A DNA stretch of 64,000 bases from Leisingera sp. ANG59. GTDB taxonomy: Bacteria > Pseudomonadota > Alphaproteobacteria > Rhodobacterales > Rhodobacteraceae. How positions within the stretch are numbered: the stretch's first letter is position 1; the number at the start of each line of letters is the position of its first letter. Below the pieces are notes generated by a model, which was not told where the DNA came from, searched no databases, and saw nothing but the letters and a program-made list of their open reading frames with translations. Of this stretch, positions 40,984 to 46,143 are shown piece by piece. The DNA lies in assembly GCF_013317235.1 (NCBI RefSeq), contig NZ_WLCM01000008.1:17711-81710 (forward strand). The letters run 5' to 3'. A program made the position numbers and the translations under genes.

Positions 40984-42930
40984 ATGGCCCAAATCTCTCT
41001 CACCTTCCCCGATGGCAATGCACGATCCTACGACGCAGGCGTCACGCCGGCGCAGGTGGCTTCCAGCATTTCCACCTCGCTGGCCAAGAAGGCCATCTCC
41101 GCCACCGTCAACGATCAGCACTGGGACCTGCAGTGGCCGATCGAAGGCGACGCCACCATTGCCATCCACACCATGAAGGACGAGGCGCAGGCCAACGAGC
41201 TGATCCGCCACGACCTTGCGCATATCATGGCGCGCGCGGTGCAGGAGATCTGGCCCGACACCAAGGTCACCATCGGCCCGGTGATCGAGAACGGCTGGTA
41301 TTACGACTTCGACCGCGCAGAGCCCTTCACCCCCGAAGACCTCGGCGCGATCGAGAAGAAGATGAAGGAAATCATCAACAAACGTGATGAGGTCCGCACC
41401 GAGGTCTGGGAACGCGACCGCGCGATCCAGCATTACACCGACAACAACGAGCCCTATAAGGTCGAGCTGATCGAGAGCATCCCCGGCGACGAGCCGCTGC
41501 GGATGTACTGGCACGGCGACTGGCAGGACCTCTGCCGCGGCCCGCACCTGCAGCACACCGGACAGCTGCCGGGTGACGCCTTCAAGCTAATGTCGATCGC
41601 GGGCGCCTACTGGCGCGGTGACTCGTCGCGCCAGATGCTGCAGCGCATCTACGGCGTGGCCTTCACCGGCAAGGAGAAGCTCAAGGCGCATCTCACCATG
41701 CTGGAGGAGGCCGCCAAGCGCGACCACCGCAAGCTGGGCCGCGAGATGGACCTGTTCCACATGCAGGAGGAAGCCCCGGGGCAGATCTTCTGGCACCCCA
41801 ACGGCTGGACCATCTACACTGAGCTGCAGGACTACATGCGCCGCCAGCAGCGCAAGGGCGGCTATGTCGAGGTGAACACCCCGCAGGTCGTCGACCGCAA
41901 GCTGTGGGAACGCTCGGGCCACTGGGACAAGTACCAGGAGAACATGTTCATCGTCGAGGTCGACGAGGAGCACGCCCGCGAGAAGGCAGTGAACGCGCTG
42001 AAGCCGATGAACTGCCCCTGCCACGTGGAGATCTTCAAGCAGGGCCTGAAGTCCTACCGCGATCTGCCGCTGCGCATGGCGGAATTCGGCTCCTGCAACC
42101 GCTACGAGCCCTCGGGCGCGCTGCACGGCATCATGCGGGTGCGAGGCTTCACTCAGGACGACGCGCATATCTTCTGCTCCGAAGACCAGATCGAGTCCGA
42201 GACCGCAACCTTTATCGAGTTCCTGTCGACCATCTACAAGGACCTCGGCTTCGAGAAGTTCTCGGTCAAGTTCTCCGACCGGCCGGAAACCCGCGCGGGC
42301 TCCGACGAGGTCTGGGACAAGGCCGAGGCCGCGCTTCTGTCCGCCACCCGCGCCGCGGGCATCGAGCCGGAACTGAACCCGGGCGAAGGCGCCTTCTACG
42401 GGCCCAAGCTGGAGTTCGTGCTGACCGACGCCATCGGCCGCGACTGGCAGTGCGGCACCCACCAGGTAGACTTCGTGCTGCCCGAGCGGCTGGACGCGAC
42501 CTACATCGGCGCCGACGGCAACAAGCACCGCCCGGTGATGCTGCACCGTGCGACTCTGGGCTCGTTTGAACGCTTCATCGGCATCCTGATCGAGGAGCAC
42601 GCGGGCAAGCTGCCGTTCTGGCTGGCGCCGCGACAGGTGGTGGTGGCCTCGATCACCTCGGAGGCCGACGACTACGTGCATGAGGTCGTGGCGGAACTGA
42701 AGAAGGCCGGCGTGCGCGCCGAGGCCGACATCCGCAACGAGAAGATCAACTACAAGGTCCGCGAGCATTCGGTGGGCAAGGTGCCGGTCATCCTCGCCGT
42801 CGGCCACCGCGAGGTGGAGGAGCGCACCGTCTCCGTCCGCCGCCTCGGCGAGAAGCAGACCAGGGTGGAGAGCCTCGAAAATGTTACAAAGTCGCTGGCG
42901 GTGGAAGCCACCCCGCCGGACCTTCTGTAA
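40984..42930 (+). CDS. thrS: Threonine-tRNA ligase
   Basis: 648 residues from the ATG at 40984, with GAGGAG 11 bases upstream. Class II synthetase: TGS domain (about 1-60: [16 protein letters not shown]), editing domain with HDLAH (76-80) as the zinc-binding HxxxH, catalytic core with [14 protein letters not shown] near 385-400, and an anticodon-binding C-terminus ([18 protein letters not shown]). The frame remains open upstream of 40984 but that part is promoter. It charges tRNA-Thr. Confidence 0.97.
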
Positions 42931-42955
42931 CATTCCGCCCCGAAAACAGCTTCAG

Positions 42956-42979
42956 CGGCCCCCATTCGGGGGCCGTTTT
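42956..42979 (+). terminator. Terminator of thrS
   Basis: CGGCCCCC-ATTC-GGGGGCCG, a perfect 8-base stem, followed by TTTTG, 25 bases after the thrS stop. Confidence 0.88.
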
Positions 42980-43151
42980 GTTTCATGAACTGGTTAAACC
43001 CCGTTATTTCAGGGCTTTGCGCGGCTTGCCGCTCTCACATACACTGACGCGGACGTGAGACACGGCCTCGTGACTTAAAATCCCGGAGGCCTCGGGTTAG
43101 TGTTTTCTTGTCAACACGACACCGCACGATTAACCGAAAGGAATTCACGAG

Positions 43152-43457
43152 ATGTCGACCACCGCAAAATCCCTGGCCGTTGCCAGCGCCGTTGCCGCCG
43201 CCCTGACCGCAGCATCAACCATCCCTGCTGCTGCCGCCACCAAGGAAAAATGCTACGGCGTTTCGCTGGCAGGCCAGAACGACTGCGCCGCCGGCCCCGG
43301 CACCACCTGCGCAGGCACCTCGACCATCGACTACCAGGGCAACGCCTGGACCCTGGTGGATGCAGGCACTTGCGAAGGCATGGAGCTGCCGGCCACGGCC
43401 GACGGCACCGAGCGCAAGGGCTCGCTGGAGCCGCTGGAACGCGACCTGCCGGCATAA
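43152..43457 (+). CDS. bufA1: Bufferin-type RiPP precursor (DUF2282, BufA1 family)
   Basis: 101 residues. An N-terminal signal peptide ([23 protein letters not shown], cleavage near 29) is followed by a small Cys-rich domain: C34 in EKCYGV, C45 in NDCAAG, C53 in TTCAGT and C74 in GTCEG, the four-Cys DUF2282 pattern. In known bufferins, a DUF692 enzyme converts central cysteines into thiooxazole-type heterocycles and the exported product binds copper. The next three genes are the expected maturation and partner set. GAAAGGAA upstream is the ribosome site. The symbol follows the bufferin naming; copper dependence here is inferred. Confidence 0.85.
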
Positions 43458-43474
43458 GAGCGGCTTGAATTCAG

Positions 43475-43504
43475 GGGGCGGGAGTGAGAATTCCCGCCCC
43501 TTTT
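43475..43504 (+). terminator. Intra-operon terminator/attenuator between bufA and bufB
   Basis: GGGGCGGGA - eight-base loop - TCCCGCCCC, a perfect 9-base stem, followed by TTTT, 17 bases after the bufA stop and 22 bases before the bufB ATG. It should stop most transcripts after the precursor gene, giving more precursor than enzyme. Confidence 0.82.
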
Positions 43505-43526
43505 GCACCCGGACACAGGACCCGCC

Positions 43527-44381
43527 ATGCTCGACGCCGCTGCTCATGACAAACTGCCTGCCGCTCCCGGCGTTGGCTACAAGCCGCAGCATTTCGCCCA
43601 GATTACCGCTGACCCTGGCGCGGTCAAATGGCTGGAAATCCATGCGGAAAACTACATGGGCGACGGCGGACGGCCGCTTGCGCAACTGCGCCACCTGTCC
43701 GAGCGCTTTGCCATGTCGGTGCATGGCGTCGGCCTCTCTATCGGCGGTGAAGGACCCTTGGACGCAGACCACCTGGTCCGGCTCAAACACCTGGTGGGAT
43801 GGCTGACCCCCGCCAGCTTCTCCGAGCATCTGGCTTGGTCCACCCATGACAGCCATTTCTACAACGACCTGCTGCCGCTGCCTTACACGGACGCCAGCCT
43901 GCAGAGGATCTGCGATCATATTGACGAACTGCAGAGCACCATCGGCCGCCGTATGCTGCTGGAAAACCCCTCCAGCTACCTCGCCTTTGCCGAGAGCACC
44001 TGGTCCGAGCCGGAGTTCCTCGCGGAAATCTCCCGCCGGACCGGCTGCGGCCTGCTTCTGGACGTGAACAACGTCTTTGTCTCGGCCACCAACCTCAATT
44101 TCTCGCCGCAGGGCTACATCGAAGCCTTCCCGCTGCACGAGGTGGATGAGATCCACCTGGGTGGCCACGACGAGGATGAGGACGGCCACGGCCGCCCGCT
44201 GCTGATCGACAGCCACGGGTGTGCTGTGGTGGATCCGGTCTGGGCGCTCTTGGACTTTACCCTCGCCCGATCCGGCCCCAAGCCGGTGCTGATAGAATGG
44301 GACAACGACGTGCCGGATTGGCCGGTGCTGGAGGCCGAAGCCGCCCGCGCCGCAACCGCGCTGGAGCGCGTCCCGGCATGA
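43527..44381 (+). CDS. bufB1: MNIO-type RiPP maturation enzyme (DUF692, BufB1)
   Basis: 284 residues from the ATG at 43527. TIM-barrel DUF692: GVGYKPQHF (15-23), EIHAENYMG (37-45), VHGVGLSIGG (65-74), SEHLAW (99-104), LENPSSYL, LLLDVNNVFVSATNL (176-190), EIHLGGHDEDED (208-219), LIDSHG (226-231) and IEWDND (256-261). The His, Glu and Asp residues in these strands bind the multinuclear iron centre that oxidises peptide cysteines. Partner of the DUF2063 protein next door; the two starts overlap (ATGA). Confidence 0.9.
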   Translation: MLDAAAHDKLPAAPGVGYKPQHFAQITADPGAVKWLEIHAENYMGDGGRPLAQLRHLSERFAMSVHGVGLSIGGEGPLDADHLVRLKHLVGWLTPASFSEHLAWSTHDSHFYNDLLPLPYTDASLQRICDHIDELQSTIGRRMLLENPSSYLAFAESTWSEPEFLAEISRRTGCGLLLDVNNVFVSATNLNFSPQGYIEAFPLHEVDEIHLGGHDEDEDGHGRPLLIDSHGCAVVDPVWALLDFTLARSGPKPVLIEWDNDVPDWPVLEAEAARAATALERVPA

Positions 44382-45133
44382 GCGTGTCCCAGACAGAATT
44401 CACCCGCGCCATGATGGATGCGGGGCAGCCGGTGCCGGACGGTCTGATCGACCATCACGCCCAGCCCGCCGGGCGCCGCTTCAACGTCTACCGCAATAAT
44501 GTGGCCGTCTCGCTGACCGAGGCGATGCACAGCGCTTTTCCGGTGATAGCCAAGCTTCTGGGAAAGCAGAACATGGACGGGCTGGCAGGCATCTACCTGC
44601 GCCAGCACCCGCCATCCACGCCCCTGATGATGTTCTACGGCGAAGATTTCCCCGCTTTCCTGGAAGCCATGGAGCAGCTCAAGCATCTGGGCTACCTGGG
44701 CGATGTAGCACGGCTGGAACTGGCCCTGCGCCGTGCCTATCACGCCGCAGATGCCGTCCCGGTCGCGCCGGAAGAGCTTGGCGCCCTGGCACCGGACCAG
44801 CTGATGAACACCCGCCTGACGCTGGCGCCTGCGGTGGACGTGCTGCGCTCGCCCTGGCCCATTCACGCGATCTGGCGCTACAACACCGAGGACGGCGCGC
44901 CCAAGCCTGAGCTGCGAGCCCAGGACGTGCTGGTCACCCGCCCCGAATTCGACCCCACTCCCCAGGTTCTGCCGCCCGCGGGCGCGCAGTGGATCCGCGC
45001 CCTGATCGGGGGCGCTTCCATCGGCGAAGCACTGGAACAGGCCGCCGCCGAAGACAAAAGCTTCGACCTGGGTGCCACGCTGGCCTTGCTGTTGCAGGGC
45101 GGCGCAATAACAGGATTGGACAGCAAAGGGTAA
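44378..45133 (+). CDS. bufC1: DUF2063 partner protein (BufC1)
   Basis: 251 residues from the ATG at 44378, overlapping the bufB stop. The N-terminal part (TEFTRAMMDAGQPVPDGLID, then RRFNVYRNNVAVSLTEAMHSAFPVI, about 31-56) is the DUF2063 DNA/peptide-recognition-like domain that in other MNIO clusters presents the precursor peptide to the enzyme. The C-terminal half is a mixed alpha/beta domain. No catalytic motif is expected. Confidence 0.88.
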   Translation: MSVSQTEFTRAMMDAGQPVPDGLIDHHAQPAGRRFNVYRNNVAVSLTEAMHSAFPVIAKLLGKQNMDGLAGIYLRQHPPSTPLMMFYGEDFPAFLEAMEQLKHLGYLGDVARLELALRRAYHAADAVPVAPEELGALAPDQLMNTRLTLAPAVDVLRSPWPIHAIWRYNTEDGAPKPELRAQDVLVTRPEFDPTPQVLPPAGAQWIRALIGGASIGEALEQAAAEDKSFDLGATLALLLQGGAITGLDSKG

Positions 45134-45137
45134 ATCC

Positions 45138-45701
45138 ATGCACGCACTTGTCTCCATTCACGACGCCGTATTCCGCCAGGTGGAAAGGGCCGGCAACTGG
45201 CTGCTGCCGCTGGCGGCGCGTTTTGTCTTTGCCTCGACGCTGCTTCTTTATTTCTGGAACTCCGGACTGACCAAGCTGGGCGACGGCATCCTTGGCCTGT
45301 TCAGCCCCTCGATCGGCGCCTACAGCCAGATCTTCCCGAAACAGCTTGAGGCGGCCGGCTATGACATCTCGCAGTTCAGCCTGTTTCATAAACTGGTGGT
45401 TCTGGCCGGCACTTATGCCGAATTCATCCTGCCGCTGCTGATCGTGATTGGCCTGCTGACCCGGCTGGCCGCGCTTGGCATGATCGGCTTTGTCGTCGTG
45501 CAGTCGCTGACCGATATCTACGGCCACGGCGCCACCGACGACAAAACCCTCGGCGCGCTGTTCGACCGCTTTCCTGATGCGGTGATCCTCGACCAGCGGC
45601 TGTTCTGGATTTTCCTGCTGGCGGTTCTGGTGATCAAAGGCGCAGGCGCCCTGTCGGTCGATGCCCTGCTGCGCCACCGGATGGAGCCCGTTACGGCCTG
45701 A
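45138..45701 (+). CDS. DoxX family membrane protein (BufD-like)
   Basis: 187 residues, four membrane spans (about 22-42, 84-105, 109-127 and 156-175). FVFASTLLLYFWNSGLTKLGDG near residue 30 is the usual DoxX first-helix signature. DoxX proteins are often the last gene of bufferin operons, perhaps in redox or export. Starts four bases after bufC with AAAGGG in the stop region, so it belongs to the operon. Confidence 0.87.
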   Translation: MHALVSIHDAVFRQVERAGNWLLPLAARFVFASTLLLYFWNSGLTKLGDGILGLFSPSIGAYSQIFPKQLEAAGYDISQFSLFHKLVVLAGTYAEFILPLLIVIGLLTRLAALGMIGFVVVQSLTDIYGHGATDDKTLGALFDRFPDAVILDQRLFWIFLLAVLVIKGAGALSVDALLRHRMEPVTA

Positions 45702-45722
45702 GCCTGAAAACCGCCCATCAAA

Positions 45723-45755
45723 AAAAGGCGCCCTGCTCCGGCAGCGGTGCCTTTT
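45723..45755. terminator. Bidirectional terminator after the bufferin operon
   Basis: AAAAGGCGCCCTGC - TCCG - GCAGCGGTGCCTTTT, a long stem with one mismatch and one bulge, flanked by A and T runs on both sides, between two convergent genes. Confidence 0.82.
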
Positions 45756-45774
45756 CCATTCGGACCGGCCTGCG

Positions 45775-46143
45775 TCAGAAATGCGCCTTGGGCTCATCCG
45801 GCTTGCCGGCCGCCAGCGCCATCAGCCCGCCCACGGCAGCAAAGCTCAGCGGGAAGATAGTAAAGACGTTGAGGCCGAACCCCGCATACATGCCTGCCGC
45901 TGACCCCAGTAGCAGCACGCCGCCCCACAAGGCCCGAGCCCGTGCCATCGCCCCGCCGGCAATCGCCAGCAGCGGCGACAGCACCGCCAGCAGCCGCAGC
46001 TGCTCGACATTCTCCACCTGCTCAGCCAGCCCTTCGACCTCGCCAAAATGCTCCACCGCCGCGGTGTAGCCGTAGCCGAAAAAGCCCACCACCATGCCGA
46101 AAATCCCGGCGATGATCCCCAGAACAAGGGCTGCATTCCGCAT
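45775..46143 (-). CDS. Small hypothetical membrane protein
   Basis: 122 residues from the ATG at 46143, preceded by GGGAGAG. Three or four membrane spans (about 4-24, 50-66, 73-88, 93-111) with a central acidic helix EHFGEVEGLAEQVENVEQLR. No recognised family. A housekeeping-looking DUF of the inner membrane; convergent with the DoxX gene. Confidence 0.6.
   Translation of the reverse strand: MRNAALVLGIIAGIFGMVVGFFGYGYTAAVEHFGEVEGLAEQVENVEQLRLLAVLSPLLAIAGGAMARARALWGGVLLLGSAAGMYAGFGLNVFTIFPLSFAAVGGLMALAAGKPDEPKAHF

Follow-up and report, generated by a model that had tools for sequence, protein, structure and literature searches.

The four genes at positions 43152 to 45701 of the window, i.e., the whole stretch of 64,000 nucleotides from Leisingera sp. 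ANG59 that was analyzed, constitute a Buf1-type bufferin operon. This kind of locus is known and common, and its control region makes the present one a variant that differs from the best-studied case in Caulobacter. We consider the following account, taken as a whole, to be quite likely: the operon would provide a copper-binding thiooxazole peptide, would be read from a sigma70-like promoter governed by a palindrome-binding regulator, and would maintain an excess of bufA by means of a hairpin.

Open reading frames and Pfam searches place all four genes, intact and on one strand, where a sequence-only reading of the same DNA had located them, and the families named there (DUF2282, DUF692 or MNIO, DUF2063, and DoxX) all score above their Pfam cut-offs:

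43152..43457, + strand: bufA, Buf1 (DUF2282) bufferin precursor, 101 aa, Cys34/45/53/74 (PF10048, 84 bits)
43527..44381, + strand: bufB, MNIO (DUF692) bufferin maturase, 284 aa (PF05114, MbnB_TglH_ChrH, 331.8 bits)
44378..45133, + strand: bufC, DUF2063 and RRE-like partner (PME-type 1), 251 aa (PF09836, 82.2 bits)
45138..45701, + strand: bufD, DoxX-family membrane protein, 187 aa (PF07681, 32.5 bits, cut-off 23.6)

The tight spacing of bufBCD was borne out as well, with a 4-base overlap of bufB and bufC and a 4-base gap between bufC and bufD. According to parts of PMC12452194, the core of a Buf1 cluster consists of bufABC plus doxX; all defining genes are present here in the canonical order bufA-bufB-bufC with doxX behind, and the operon is thus complete, as had been proposed. 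By tblastn with printed coordinates, all four genes were found in the same order in 80/80 loci, these being the best 80 of at least 573 confirmed relatives and nearly all labelled as roseobacters, which excludes a chance grouping. With 80/80 loci among these best 80, thiooxazole copper-buffer peptides would seem part of the core chromosomal gene set in a dominant marine group. The accompanying claim that the product has been described for few operons of this kind was fair for the roseobacter lineage, where our literature searches found no paper joining Roseobacter, copper, and DUF692, but not for the product class, which is described in parts of PMC12452194 and PMC12668002.

Across the best 80 of at least 573 relatives, BufB identity ranges from 74 to 93 %, with Leisingera closest (93 %), and thrS lies upstream of buf in 78 of these 80 loci; the exceptions are L062, which sits at a contig end and has no upstream DNA, and L068, with a different gene in that place. 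Loci L059, L061, and L077, in which the cysteine pattern missed bufA, were left out of the upstream, operator, hairpin, and TANNNT counts. One record titled Nocardioides marinus (L033, JAHVJD010000002.1) carries a roseobacter-type thrS-bufABCD locus together with the operator described below and is probably mislabelled or contaminated. More broadly, of 120 genomes sampled at one per genus from the family of the window, 85 have DUF2282, as do 100 of 289 from the class.

BufA is encoded by the only DUF2282 gene of its genome and, like the precursors of Buf1 clusters, carries four cysteines. Its N-terminus, judged by eye only, resembles a Sec-type signal. An NCBIfam search gave no match to a BufA1 model, and assignment as a Buf2 bufferin was rejected at 20.3 bits on the BufA2 model (cut-off 60). 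As laid out in PMC12452194, Buf1 bufferins carry the modification on their two central cysteines, and a disulfide links the outer pair; the modification is a copper-binding 5-thiooxazole (PMC12452194 and PMC12668002). By homology, BufA would be synthesized with a Sec-type signal peptide and presented by BufC (DUF2063 plus RRE) to BufB, a presumed multinuclear iron enzyme converting C45 and C53, the modified residues as judged by position, into 5-thiooxazoles, while C34 and C74 would form the disulfide. The exported peptide probably mops up copper, with the mature product binding an excess of this metal in the periplasm, and the DoxX protein BufD may have an accessory membrane role. Past the DUF2282 domain, BufA has a 12-residue C-terminal tail that shows strong conservation among roseobacter loci (best 80 of at least 573) but varies across the class sample; the tail might serve as a signal for recognition or export. 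Tandem precursors, i.e., two adjacent DUF2282 genes, were seen in locus L199 (genome G295) and in genome G387.

The best start of bufB, the only MNIO gene of its genome, is the ATG at 43527, and its product scores 364.2 bits on the NCBIfam model MNIO_BufB (cut-off 310), as expected of a bufferin-type MNIO. Other MNIO types (methanobactin, oxazolin, ApyH, and chryseobasin) were rejected, with BufB remaining under the NCBIfam cut-offs for MbnB, HvfB, ApyH, and ChrH. BufB aligns with PDB entry 3bww (E 3e-41) and also with TglH and MbnB. A lack of the DUF692 iron-ligand residues, which the sequence-only reading had named as grounds for abandoning its proposal, is not what the alignment revealed: E41, H66, H101, E146, D179, N181, N182, H214, D228, H230, and E257 are invariant in 81/81 aligned BufBs (best 80 of at least 573). 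Putative iron ligands among these motif residues were assigned by motif alignment with solved MNIOs and by reference to HvfB, for which the residues used were N175, D242, and H244, as given in parts of PMC13419390.

For BufC, whose DUF2063 domain spans residues 5–95, neither phmmer nor a 39-sequence profile returned a PDB relative by sequence, and the protein stays under the NCBIfam cut-off for HvfC. Its AlphaFold2 model (mean pLDDT 93.3) was matched by Foldseek to TglI (8hi7; E 2.1e-6, TM 0.60 by query; 234–238 columns), to 8hci (E 2.0e-6), and to NGO1945 (3dee; E 2.2e-4; 210 columns). Because the model matches both TglI and NGO1945, BufC appears by its predicted fold to have the DUF2063-plus-RRE architecture and would thus be a DUF2063-fused-to-RRE partner (PME-type 1, about 250–260 aa).

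Beyond these genes, two features escaped the earlier reading, namely a 69-base gap between bufA and bufB with a strong hairpin and a conserved double palindrome 5′ of bufA. The upstream region is organized as follows:

42954..42977, + strand: terminator-like hairpin after thrS (pattern scan, 10 pairs), parting thrS from the buf promoter region
43045..43073, + strand: 29-bp double palindrome TSACGNNNNYGTGANNCACRNNNNYGTGA, proposed buf operator, 0 mismatches in the window
43075..43080, + strand: putative −35 (TTAAAA), adjoining the operator, inferred from its place 17 bases before the conserved −10
43098..43103, + strand: putative −10 (TAGTGT, pattern TANNNT), sigma70-like, at a fixed offset in relatives

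In 76 upstream regions of related loci (best 80 of at least 573), the palindrome has 0 mismatches in 54, 1 in 13, 2 in 6, and at least 4 in 3, and positions 1, 3, 4, and 11–13 pair with 29, 27, 26, and 19–17 in 70–76 of the 76. It beats all 100 self-shuffles in 71 of 77 regions of the same set, window included, and fails in 6; the consensus for this shuffle test was derived from those very loci (best 80 of at least 573), and the independent tests are therefore a scan of 120 genera and a weight-matrix test within and outside the family. In the scan, 39 sites with at most 1 mismatch were found in 38 genomes, as compared to 1 match of the reversed control pattern, and 35 of the 39 share the strand of a DUF2282 domain and lie 153–192 bp 5′ of it. 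The remaining four comprise a site after bufA in G350, one in G399 (a genome without DUF2282), a second site in G358, and one on another contig in G405. With the weight matrix, 21/30 bufA upstream regions of the family, whose loci partly overlap the 120-genus genomes, beat all 200 shuffles and 9/30 are without a site; among out-of-family regions, 0/30 beat them. The operator-like site in G350 lies 3′ of bufA on contig C9 (6219–6247), and that in G399 is a perfect operator at L153 1501–1529; the nearest open reading frame of L153 (866–1429, minus strand) would, by its sequence, encode a protein resembling an exported L,D-transpeptidase, and this operator is possibly a second target or due to chance.

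With 2 or fewer mismatches allowed, the palindrome occurs once in its own genome. The long pattern with 3 mismatches gave 8 further places versus 5 reversed-control matches, which established no further targets, and the short pattern with 2 mismatches gave 16+20 versus 13+15, that is, control level. TANNNT recurs at one fixed offset in 52/76 related loci (best 80 of at least 573) over a background of 0.5 % per index; a sigma70 consensus scan of 42900–45900 found no promoter, so that the −10 is proposed from this comparison only. MerR/CueR-type copper promoters have a spacer of 19–20 bp, and their dyad sits between the −35 and the −10. Such a promoter was rejected for buf, where the inferred spacer is 17 and the palindrome lies 5′ of the putative −35.

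The palindrome is kept where the flank showed no thrS (L154 and L068, which share upstream DNA, L170 and L194, L180, and L198) and is thus an element of buf, not of thrS. In these loci the upstream genes, which read as dnaE-like, TctC-like, a WYL-type regulator with a membrane protein, and a dehydrogenase, appear mutually unrelated, and no regulator was found by neighborhood. A dedicated regulator, unlinked to buf, probably uses the palindrome as its operator: directly 5′ of the −35 of a sigma70-like promoter, the site would be bound by this protein, encoded elsewhere, presumably in an activating direction. As one highly specific site per genome, the palindrome may serve as direct bait for this regulator and hence lead to its signal, be it copper or another metal. 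No report of a buf operator or hairpin was found in the literature searched, and the words promoter, terminator, and hairpin are absent from the main texts of PMC12452194 and PMC12668002.

The second feature lies within the 69-base gap:

43473..43504, + strand: intercistronic GC-rich hairpin, then TTTT (fold z −3.1)

The gap as a whole folds at −33.1 kcal/mol (z −3.1). Of 77 related loci (best 80 of at least 573), 61 have a stem that outperforms each of 50 dinucleotide shuffles (16 do not) and 71 one that outperforms all but at most 1, with a median fold z of −2.7; the hairpin beats all shuffles in 22/30 loci of the family sample and 7/26 of the class sample. With 70 distinct stem sequences across the 77 loci (best 80 of at least 573), it is kept in place and structure, not in sequence. 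At least 4 T within 8 bases after the stem are present in 27/77 loci of this set. With the T-run mostly weak, a stabilizing or leaky-terminator role, yielding more bufA than bufBCD mRNA, seems more likely than full termination. The hairpin probably sets the precursor-to-enzyme ratio, in that it would hold the mRNA of the substrate (bufA) above that of the enzymes (bufBCD), and offers a testable model for a RiPP operon making much precursor and little enzyme. In the puf operon of Rhodobacter, a stem-loop between cistrons raises the abundance of the upstream mRNA segment, and the buf stem-loop is likened to it by analogy only.

Both features allow for other readings. The hairpin might be a plain intrinsic terminator, with bufBCD depending on read-through or on another promoter. 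We find this somewhat unlikely: the window stem does fold well and is followed by TTTT, but the T-run criterion of at least 4 T of 8 holds in only the 27/77 loci mentioned (best 80 of at least 573), and the 42900–45900 scan offers no sigma70-type promoter for the downstream genes. Less probable still, the double palindrome could act as an RNA element (two small 5′-leader stem-loops) or as an alternative-sigma promoter instead of an operator. Each half, CACGNNNNCGTG, could make a 4-bp stem, the palindrome is without a known regulator, and there is generally one site per genome, all of which would suit such a role. What is kept, however, is the primary sequence and not the pairing, with indices 5/10 being an unpaired A/C in 6/76 regions (best 80 of at least 573), and the palindrome lies 5′ of TANNNT at a fixed offset; an Rfam element was rejected, as no match was obtained at E up to 1.

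With regard to the product, a modified Buf1 peptide whose main job is not copper but another metal (Au, Ag, Hg, Cd, or Zn) or redox/envelope stress is improbable to a similar degree. It would agree with the different buf promoter of the roseobacter lineage, with the response of the Caulobacter sigmaF genes also to chromate and cadmium (parts of PMC3511200 and PMC8224329), and with roles for other metals suggested in a portion of PMC12452194; yet the core cluster is identical to that of copper-binding bufferins, and PMC12452194 and PMC12668002 name copper as the metal of this class. That the cluster is decayed or idle, its genes merely inherited and the peptide unmodified, is highly improbable. 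PMC12538549 reports that a related cluster of Microbulbifer showed no expression under the conditions used there, but no reading frame is broken, all of them are conserved throughout the 80 loci (best 80 of at least 573), and constraint acts on both the promoter and the active site.

The GIG operons of Cupriavidus and Legionella share the core cluster, are metal-responsive, and belong to other lineages. The captophorins (oxazolin/HvfABC and fontiphorin) likewise combine an MNIO and a PME-type 1 partner with an exported precursor and a thiooxazole product; their precursors differ from the BufA family by EGKCG or Lys-Cys repeats, and BufB reaches 218.5 on the HvfB (oxazolin) model at a cut-off of 360. 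In methanobactin biosynthesis, MbnBC similarly pairs an MNIO with a partner acting on cysteines; however, the precursor is a different one, the purpose is copper uptake rather than buffering, and the MbnB score of BufB is 48.6 (cut-off 325).

A close counterpart is the Bufferin 1 operon of Caulobacter (CC3254-3257/CCNA_03363-03366), in which the four gene families follow one another as they do here; its precursor likewise has four cysteines, and it has a signal peptide, to which the Sec-like N-terminus of BufA would correspond. According to parts of PMC3511200 and PMC8224329, it is read by the ECF factor sigmaF (GTAACC-N16-CGAA), and the nearby NrsF is an anti-sigma factor and negative regulator. 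In contrast, the Leisingera genome contains no NrsF (0 matches, the Caulobacter control being positive) and its buf locus has the conserved palindromic element instead of a sigmaF promoter, which was rejected 5′ of bufA as the best match to GTAACC-N16-CGAA has 3 mismatches of 10 in a genome without NrsF. At up to 1 mismatch, a sigmaF-type promoter precedes 1/79 of the named roseobacter loci (best 80 of at least 573; control 0), 6/30 loci of the class sample, and 6/30 of the family sample (controls 1 and 0, respectively), and it is present in 5/8 family-sample loci from NrsF genomes. NrsF was found in 17/120 family genomes, 14 of them with DUF2282, and its distribution excludes that of the operator: 0/35 genomes with the operator before bufA carry it versus 14/50 other DUF2282 genomes (Fisher p 2.7e-4, ignoring phylogeny), which points to two alternative control modes within one family. 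The genome G405 with its operator-like site, though not at bufA, is an NrsF genome by a weak match. Expression of buf would thus be independent of sigmaF/NrsF, unlike that of the Caulobacter operon. We are evenly divided on the further proposal that the roseobacter bufferin moved from the sigmaF/NrsF circuit to a one-target, unlinked regulator on the 29-bp palindrome, with a hairpin of variable sequence setting the peptide-to-enzyme ratio; if true, this regulator would be a metal sensor, either a novel one or one already known whose site has gone unrecognized.
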